From: a virus
Reading direction: 5' to 3' (one strand)
DNA length: 28,365 nucleotides
IMG/VR virus record: IMGVR_UViG_3300032084_001580
Location: 1-28,365 of that record
The notes under the pieces are model-generated. The model ran no database searches. It was given only the letters and a program-made list of their open reading frames with translations, and was not told the DNA's origin. The translations under genes and the position numbers were made by a program. Shown piece after piece: positions 3,187 through 3,759 of this stretch (the first letter of the stretch is position 1; every line of letters begins with the position of its first letter).

Positions 3187-3195
3187 ATATATATT

Positions 3196-3229
3196 AGAAA
3201 TTGATTGGTACTGCGGACCTTTCTTTTTT
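3196..3229 (+). terminator. imperfect hairpin followed by a T-run
   Basis: AGAAA (3196-3200) can pair with TTTCT (3220-3224), and GGT (3207-3209) with ACC (3217-3219) inside it, leaving a six-base internal bulge on the 5' side. A T-run follows directly. It lies just after the stop of 2767-3186 and would separate that gene from hsp20. The stem is weak, so this is a candidate only. Its apical part contains the left copy of the inverted repeat that flanks hsp20. Confidence 0.35.
3210..3219. repeat. left arm of a 10-bp inverted repeat flanking hsp20
   Basis: ACTGCGGACC here is the exact reverse complement of GGTCCGCAGT at 3681-3690, on the other side of hsp20. It is GC-rich in a very AT-rich gap, and both arms are preceded by GATTG. 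Both arms lie in the loop region of terminator-like hairpins, so the two loops could pair in the RNA, or the repeat could mark the ends of a transferred gene cassette. Confidence 0.6.
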
Positions 3230-3269
3230 GTTTATTTTTTAATTTTTAAATCATCTAAGGAGATTTATT

Positions 3270-3671
3270 ATGAGTACATTAGATTTACATCCATTCGATT
3301 TGATGTTCCGCAATTTTTTCGACAACGGAACAGAGTTCAGAACAGCATTAAACAGTAAAGTTCAGCATCCAGTTGACATTTCAGAAACAGACGATGGTCT
3401 GCAGATTGAAATTGCAGCAGTGGGTGTTGACAAGCAGGACTTGGAGTTACAGACCCAAGGAGATACTTTACGAGTTGCATACCGTAAAGACAATCGACCT
3501 GCACATGAGTATATCCATAAGGGTATTGCTCGCAGAAACTTTGACTTAGGTTGGAGGCTGGCAAGAAAGTTTGATTTGGAAAAGATAGACGCCAAATTGG
3601 ACAAAGGGTTATTATGCATCAAAGTTCCTTACACTAAGGAACAGGCTACAAAGAAAGTTTCTATCAGCTAA
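3270..3671 (+). CDS. hsp20: Hsp20 / alpha-crystallin family small heat-shock protein
   Basis: A 133-residue protein of typical small heat-shock length. A short N-terminal arm with aromatic FDLMFRNFFDN precedes the alpha-crystallin domain (about residues 30-130): PVDISETDDGLQIEIAAVGV, then the VDKQDLELQTQGDTLRV strands, then RNFDLGWRLARKFDLEKIDA and the closing GLLCIKVPY. The family holds unfolding proteins in a soluble state without ATP. Phage copies occur in cyanophages and other marine T4-like phages and may protect virion or replication proteins. It has the strongest ribosome site in this region (AAGGAGA), unlike most neighbours, and is bounded by terminator-like hairpins and an inverted repeat, so it looks like an independent cassette. 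Confidence 0.9.
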   Translation: MSTLDLHPFDLMFRNFFDNGTEFRTALNSKVQHPVDISETDDGLQIEIAAVGVDKQDLELQTQGDTLRVAYRKDNRPAHEYIHKGIARRNFDLGWRLARKFDLEKIDAKLDKGLLCIKVPYTKEQATKKVSIS

Positions 3672-3675
3672 AATG

Positions 3676-3701
3676 AGATTGGTCCGCAGTCAATCTTTTT
3701 T
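3676..3701 (+). terminator. intrinsic terminator after hsp20
   Basis: AGATTG (3676-3681) pairs with CAATCT (3691-3696) around a nine-base loop, and a T-run continues to 3701. It begins four bases after the hsp20 stop. The loop carries the right arm of the inverted repeat. Stem plus T-run is the standard intrinsic form, although the stem is only six pairs. Confidence 0.6.
3681..3690. repeat. right arm of the inverted repeat flanking hsp20
   Basis: GGTCCGCAGT, the reverse complement of 3210-3219. It occupies most of the loop of the terminator hairpin after hsp20. The arms are 461 bases apart with exactly one gene between them. Confidence 0.6.
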
Positions 3702-3745
3702 CCATTTAAATTTGGTATTACGAAAATTATTTCTTATCTTTATTA

Positions 3746-3751
3746 TATAAT
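3746..3751 (+). promoter_or_regulatory. TATAAT -10 element directly before uvsE
   Basis: A perfect TATAAT lies in a very AT-rich gap. The 17-base position upstream holds AAAATT, so there is no recognisable -35 box. Transcription would begin near 3758, two bases before the ATG at 3760, giving an essentially leaderless mRNA. The preceding terminator makes a separate promoter here necessary. Confidence 0.45.
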
Positions 3752-3759
3752 AAGTAAGT

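Follow-up and report, generated by a model that had tools for sequence, protein, structure and literature searches.

Pairing between the two untranslated regions (UTRs) of one bacterial mRNA has been described in single cases, namely RNAIII, icaR, and hbs (PMC7821165). In Staphylococcus aureus, the 3' UTR of the icaR mRNA pairs with its own leader, covers the ribosome-binding site, and makes a substrate for RNase III (PMC7821165, PMC5502269). The icaR motif is absent in a sister species, and the use of UTR pairing by other genes is stated to need study (PMC7821165). In the hbs mRNA of Bacillus subtilis, protection from RNase Y has been measured (PMC7821165). The hok mRNA of plasmid R1 can form a metastable structure on its 5' side or a 5'–3' helix over a long distance; the two exclude each other, and both of them covary (PMC2891591). 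In γ-proteobacteria, the small heat-shock protein IbpA controls its own gene through the 5' UTR, which is structured and possibly a binding site for the protein (PMC10474464).

The locus analyzed here, an hsp20 gene, lies in a fragment of a T4-like myovirus, in which baseplate wedge families were found; the whole stretch of 28,365 nucleotides is called the window below. As in the mRNAs with paired UTRs, complementary segments, the 5' and 3' arms, are present in both UTRs of this one gene, and the same was found at every one of the 150 hsp20 loci for which the flanks are complete. The likeness to icaR is that the 3' UTR probably pairs with its own leader. Unlike in icaR, a distance of 28–74 nt separates the core of the 5' arm from the start codon across the 70 representatives, and no consistent change in predicted Shine-Dalgarno access was found. 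Whereas the effect was measured for hbs, the present case is one of sequence comparison; it differs from hbs also in the compensating changes across 70 phage clusters and in having a competing hairpin as the 5' partner. As in hok, a local 5' structure and a long-range helix were found to be mutually exclusive and both to covary, but hok-type loci carry a toxin gene with an antisense RNA, whereas the gene here is hsp20 and no overlapping reading frame was found. Many cyanophage hsp20 leaders share a hairpin with a bulged nucleotide and a tetraloop, the bulge being G, but have no 5'–3' arms. A structure of this kind around phage hsp20 did not appear in titles and abstract openings among the matches listed from the open-access literature, and PMC3827213, on viral small heat-shock proteins, has no words beginning with promoter, untranslated, upstream, mRNA, or regulat.

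Arms flanking hsp20 in the window

The following features of the locus are referred to in the text.

3188..3196 (+): AT-rich, promoter-like stretch shortly before the 5' arm (putative)
3203..3219 (+): 5' arm, seen in the sequence; its hairpin and the long-range helix covary in relatives
3207-3219 (+): hairpin I, GGT[ACTGCGG]ACC, inside the 5' arm; alternative fold
3247..3267 (+): hairpin II, TAAATC-A-TC[TAAG]GA-GATTTA, with bulged A3253; includes the Shine-Dalgarno sequence AAGGAG (3257-3262)
3270..3671 (+): hsp20, 133 aa; Pfam HSP20, E 4.7e-13; PHROG 432
3676..3701 (+): alternative local 3' hairpin, AGATTG[GTCCGCAGT]CAATCT, with a T-run after it; resembles a terminator in the window's clade
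3681..3695 (+): 3' arm; GGTCCGCAGT pairs with 3210-3219

The hsp20 gene is flanked by a gene for 139 aa without known function on one side and by a uvdE-type UV endonuclease gene on the other. An earlier note on this DNA had reported that ACTGCGGACC and its exact complement flank hsp20. The report was confirmed: ACTGCGGACC lies at 3210–3219 (+) and the exact reverse complement at 3681–3690, and the window contains no further match when one mismatch is allowed. Among dinucleotide shuffles of the two gaps (3187–3269 and 3672–3759), 7 of 2000 matched the exact complementary run, and of 29 open frames of the window that were scored for flank complementarity, hsp20 ranked first. Over the whole window, 9 of 100 shuffles yielded at least two matches at one mismatch or fewer; since the pair is thus not significant by itself, the evidential weight was placed on the relatives. 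Two details of the earlier description held in part. GATTG indeed precedes the 5' arm, although GT intervenes, but at the other site it runs one base into the 3' arm. The hairpins had been called terminator-like on both sides; the 3' AGATTG stem is followed by T, but the 5' stem has just 3 bp, and a terminator scan, which covered loops of 3–8 only, listed neither.

The stretch at 3188..3196 corresponds in position, by eye, to ATATTTATA-like stretches in many relatives. TATTTATA showed a modest enrichment before genes, with 20 of its 114 occurrences lying within 50 nt upstream of a plus-strand frame start, compared with 6.2% of the sequence. Because TATAAATA was enriched more (19 of 57 occurrences), we regard TATTTATA as a candidate promoter element at most.

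Arms in relatives and in control genes

A total of 161 hsp20 loci was compared: the window and 160 loci from two profile scans, of which one contributed the best 80 of 399 relatives and the other the best 80 of at least 528. Some contigs occur in both scans, and these duplicates were removed by clustering at 90% protein identity. Full flanks (110 nt upstream and 60 nt downstream) were available for 150 of the 161 loci; the 11 loci left out include L046, L057, L058, and L061, whose low scores arise because the contigs begin inside the leader. An arm pair was defined by a local complementarity score with a threshold of 28, which replaced a whole-flank RNAduplex scan that gave long AU-rich duplexes and poor contrast. 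An arm pair lies tightly around hsp20 in 150 of 150 full-flank loci, corresponding to 70/70, 32/32, and 10/10 clusters at 90, 75, and 60% identity, respectively. Because the best 80 loci per scan were kept, this result is valid for the loci nearest the two queries and not for all phage hsp20 genes. The arm sequences vary from lineage to lineage (12 of the 150 loci fell into no sequence group), while the complementarity is preserved inside each phage.

The controls gave far lower frequencies. Cross-paired flanks reached the threshold in 108 of 1200 cases, a figure inflated by arm sequence common to some groups, and other genes of the same loci did so in 10 of 365. The judgment of the earlier note that the pair is improbable by chance is well supported by the contrast between hsp20 and the other genes of these loci. 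In four long records, 22 of 879 genes reached the threshold, and three of the 22 were hsp20 (the hsp20 gene of G005 was uncounted owing to a piece boundary, and the same locus, L126, is within the 150). With so few genes at the threshold in these four records, we abandoned the idea that these phages contain many genes closed in this manner.

Other genes with complementary flanks were observed in a few places. In two related phages (L034:548-958 and L050:538-951), a second gene of about 137 aa is flanked by similar complementary hairpins (ATTAGGA..TCCTTAAT / TTAAG..CTTAATT), and its product looks like a small outer-membrane protein with a signal peptide. Among the 43 of 879 genes with a score of at least 25 in the four records, the only other recurring homologous pair consists of small genes in G008 (L235:8231-8479, minus strand) and G005 (L227:18601-18786, plus strand), which are 75% identical and have scores of 27.5 and 25.5, respectively, below the threshold.

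The relatives of the window were also compared individually. L001–L003 have both arms, and L004, whose contig begins inside hsp20, has the 3' arm. The arms of L003, ACTGCGGGCC and GGCCCGCAGT, represent a compensated change, and its leader hairpin is altered in step with the arms (GGT/ACC to GGC/GCC); L002 has one uncompensated mismatch between the arms. Further-off relatives, reached via uvdE, have other arm sequences, which match within each phage. Among the three loci from metagenome-assembled genomes (MAGs), L204 and L205 have arms and L203, whose hsp20 is 44% identical, has none; arms are absent also in the viral locus L005. In L015, homologs of the 139-aa gene and of uvdE were found between 1907 and 4001 with no hsp20 match, so that the hsp20 unit may have been lost or relocated naturally in this relative. 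The earlier note had proposed that related phages be compared for covarying arms, and had taken an hsp20 gene kept in place between arms diverging without compensation as the outcome against its idea. Covariation is present and the arms compensate, and the contrary outcome was unseen in the 150 loci, the mismatch of L002 being as described above.

No hsp20 gene from outside the lineage reached the threshold among the 20 in the phage record collection that were scored (maximum 26.5, mean 19.8); these came from 14 cyanophages, two pelagiphages, a methylophage, a Campylobacter phage, an Agrobacterium phage, and a marine single-cell virus record. In the same collection, nothing reached 60% identity to the four hsp20 queries. 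These two results place the arm trait in a T4-like lineage to which the phage record collection has no close relative.

A probable long-range helix and the leader hairpin

Covariation was counted in an alignment, A5, comprising only the loci with the loop pattern ACNNNRG (78 of the 150 loci, with 50 distinct arm pairs). In those 78 loci, the 5' arm is a hairpin of 5–6 bp with a 7-nt loop. The long-range helix is formed by loop nucleotides 3–7 and the 3' strand of this hairpin with the 3' arm; 90.5% of its cells were paired (68.8% in shuffles), its covariation was 0.683 (0.288 shuffled, at most 0.172 when slid), and 147 cells were changed on both sides (55.3 shuffled). The corresponding values for the local 5' stem were 87.3% (64.8% shuffled), 0.708 (0.301 shuffled, at most 0.251 when slid), and 76 cells (29.1 shuffled). 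For neither helix was there an excess over shuffles in the remaining two of the five measures, namely how many pairs had double changes and how many pair types occurred. Because the register of A5 was picked by the long-range match and its rows are related, these counts lean toward the long-range helix. Columns 14–19 of A5 are used by both the local 5' stem and the long-range helix, and the leader hairpin and the long-range helix exclude each other, since both need the 3' strand of the hairpin. The 5' strand of the hairpin was paired with the 3' arm in 49.3% of cells, equal to the shuffled value, but in 61.0%, with a covariation of 0.367, when slid by −2 columns. These latter values suggest that the 5' strand may join the helix across a 2-nt bulge in some loci, as is possible in the window, where CAATC (3691–3695) is able to pair with GATTG (3203–3207) in this way.

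Folding predictions were examined for the same regions. Compared with shuffled flanks, hairpins with p ≤ 0.1 were found at the 5' side in 27 and at the 3' side in 13 of the 70 representatives, and the mean energy z-scores of local hairpins in fixed windows were −1.08 and −0.52, respectively. When the whole region was folded for 37 sequences, the minimum-energy structure included at least half of the arm pairs in 36 of them, and in all 37 the most probable arm pair had a probability of at least 0.5.

Mismatches within the arms were used to distinguish pairing in RNA from a DNA repeat. Internal mismatches, defined as those flanked by at least two Watson–Crick pairs, were counted on the hsp20-sense strand of the 70 representatives with G·U and A·C scored alike. 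There were 31 G·U and 2 A·C, compared with 77 and 60 in the cross-paired control (Fisher p 1.6e-5). These are the counts for the middle one of three penalties, which gave G·U/A·C ratios of 35/5, 31/2, and 28/2, with controls of 121/85, 77/60, and 59/44. An earlier form of the test, with long alignments and 36 representatives, gave 52 G·U and 23 A·C. At the ends of the helices, where pairing gives out and no preference is expected, none was seen (39 and 38). Since G·U is far in excess over A·C on the sense strand, and a DNA repeat should lack strand preference, we conclude that the arm pairing most probably acts in RNA, not in DNA. It is highly probable that the arms form a long-range helix in the hsp20 mRNA that competes with the leader hairpin, the two being conserved alternative states.

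A second element of the leader, hairpin II, has the shape of a stem, a bulged A, two base pairs, and a tetraloop. Such a shape was found in 55 of the 70 representative leaders; in at least one of the 55 (L064) the hairpin coincides with the 5' arm, and a few AT-rich ones may be due to chance. The bulge is A in 55 of 55, although A or G was allowed. The controls gave a mean of 2.5 (maximum 7) for shuffled leaders, 2 for a bulge on the opposite side, and 2 for the 3' flank. The outer stem covaries with many pair types, such as GCUG/CAGC, GCUC/GAGC, GGUU/AACC, and GACG/CGUC. Among the 20 hsp20 leaders from outside the lineage, 12 have such a shape when any bulge is allowed; the bulge is G in 11 of these 12, and 8 of the 11 have the tip CC[UUCG]GG. 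A stricter form, whose loop list was taken from hsp20 leaders, was found in 3 of 879 leaders in the four long records and in none of the shuffled ones; two of the three are hsp20 leaders, and the third hsp20 leader of the set (G008) is without the hairpin. The covariance models of Rfam 15 had no match at the gathering score in the window and seven loci. The geometry of hairpin II resembles, we presume, that of the MS2 coat-protein operator. A protein probably binds hairpin II, perhaps Hsp20 itself by analogy with IbpA, from which the phage case differs in that binding by Hsp20 is putative and that hairpin II is without an Rfam match at the gathering score. Because hairpin II is largely specific to hsp20, the analogy suggests autogenous control of hsp20 through this hairpin.

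With respect to translation, the Shine-Dalgarno sequence sits within hairpin II in the window, a point relevant to a comparison with the RNA thermometers of small heat-shock genes, in which a hairpin enclosing the Shine-Dalgarno melts when heated. A simple translational switch was considered and rejected: when the 5' arm was blocked, predicted Shine-Dalgarno access went up in 12 and down in 13 of the 70 leaders. When the presence of the 3' arm was compared with its absence, access went up in 6 and down in 12 of the 70 for the Shine-Dalgarno sequence and up in 2 and down in 12 for the start-codon region, a slight lean to less access with a mean change of 0.01.

Proposed mechanism and alternative readings

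In the proposed mechanism, the open state would be that in which the leader hairpin is formed, and the closed state that in which the leader is joined to the 3' UTR. Once RNA polymerase had moved past the end of hsp20, the 3' segment would capture the 5' loop, strip the 3' strand from the hairpin, and close the mRNA. Closure would then set the lifetime, processing, or translation of the hsp20 message, as in other mRNAs with paired 5' and 3' UTRs. Message stability or processing is favored as the main output by analogy with hbs and icaR (PMC7821165; PMC5502269) and with a hok-like folding pathway (PMC2891591), but this assignment is tentative. A bolder version, which we consider rather doubtful, is that the hsp20 mRNA senses the end of its own transcription and locks end to end like a clasp, and that this, together with a bulged-A operator bound by Hsp20, would provide a self-timed, self-limiting chaperone burst.

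Several other RNA-based readings are to be weighed against the competing helix. Each UTR might hold a stable hairpin, with the complementary loops alone meeting and both hairpins staying folded. Hairpins with complementary loops are possible at both arms in many loci (e.g., L072, L170, and L064), but the 3' strand of the 5' hairpin also takes part in the conserved pairing, and the separate 3' hairpin is near its shuffled value (50.8% compared with 47.6% in a fixed register, a weak signal; p ≤ 0.1 in 13 of 70). Such kissing hairpins are unlikely as a general account, and the proposal of the earlier note is supported as to pairing of the arms in RNA, by covariation and by the strand-specific G·U excess, but its ring closed purely by a loop–loop kiss is too narrow. 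The long-range pairing would also fit a small RNA derived from the 3' UTR that pairs with hsp20 leaders in trans and provides feedback, and autoregulation by such small RNAs has precedent (PMC7398697). This reading is quite improbable, the core of the 3' arm starting 2–28 nt past the hsp20 stop codon in the 70 representatives, so that pairing in cis is available at once. The uninterrupted double-stranded core of 10–20 bp, and the precedent of icaR with RNase III (PMC5502269, PMC7821165), are compatible with a processing stem at which RNase III would cut and thereby free or destroy the hsp20 message. A mere cut site needs no conserved competing 5' hairpin, and this possibility too appears small. 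In addition, RNase III would usually need a longer helix than several of the loci offer.

Two readings concern termination and DNA. The earlier note had considered the arms as terminators made mutually exclusive by their pairing. The exclusion was found, between the 5' hairpin and the long-range helix, but terminators are present in a minority of loci at most. In the window's clade each arm has a T-run behind it, in L028 a 7-bp hairpin precedes T7, and T-rich tails occur after the 5' core in 19 and after the 3' core in 14 of the 70 representatives (both in 5), compared with 52 of 1400 random places, a baseline that was not limited to AT-rich gaps. On the other hand, the arms are kept without T-rich tails in 51/70 (5') and 56/70 (3'), the 5' stem in the window has 3 bp, and a stable GC-rich stem with a T-run at both arms, as in a pair of intrinsic terminators, was not the rule. 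The terminator or attenuator reading is very unlikely for the arms in general; judging from the T-rich tails, termination may have been added in some clades. Least probable by far is a DNA feature, in which the arms would be inverted repeats at the two ends of a mobile chaperone cassette (the earlier note had considered the footprint of a cassette's entry) or the ends of an invertible segment. The next gene does differ among lineages, and L015 has a homolog of the upstream gene and uvdE without an hsp20 match. However, different lineages have different arm sequences, as would not be expected of a recombinase site; the arms remain beside hsp20 even though the gene after it changes; and the mismatches are of the RNA type with a strand-specific G·U excess. 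Terminal inverted repeats with conserved recombinase-site ends were accordingly rejected as a candidate, and the idea of an insertion footprint is not upheld. A plus-strand frame of at least 45 aa, called mechanically, begins 5–91 nt past hsp20 in 70 of 70 representatives, and there is thus no sign of inversion.

The next gene is uvdE in the window and small frames elsewhere. In some loci its product looks GroES-like from the first residues, as we take it: the gene begins MKIKPLHNHVVI or similar in L072, L102, L118, L122, L124, L126, and L130, presumably a co-chaperonin of the GroES type, and these loci may have an hsp20 + groES operon. In several groups of the L068-L178 type, the next gene starts in the 3' arm or a few bases from it, and in L087, L174, and L175, the opening codons of that gene, for MRPTNS or MRPTTS, belong to the 3' arm. 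Because the start is in or beside the 3' arm in some groups only, control of that gene is not what all the groups have in common.

The competing helix gives strong comparative support for 5'–3' closure of an mRNA, in one gene across 70 phage clusters, with the competing leader hairpin also kept. These loci provide a test bed for the effect of closure, and a handle on the control of phage small heat-shock genes, which are found in many marine T4-like phages.
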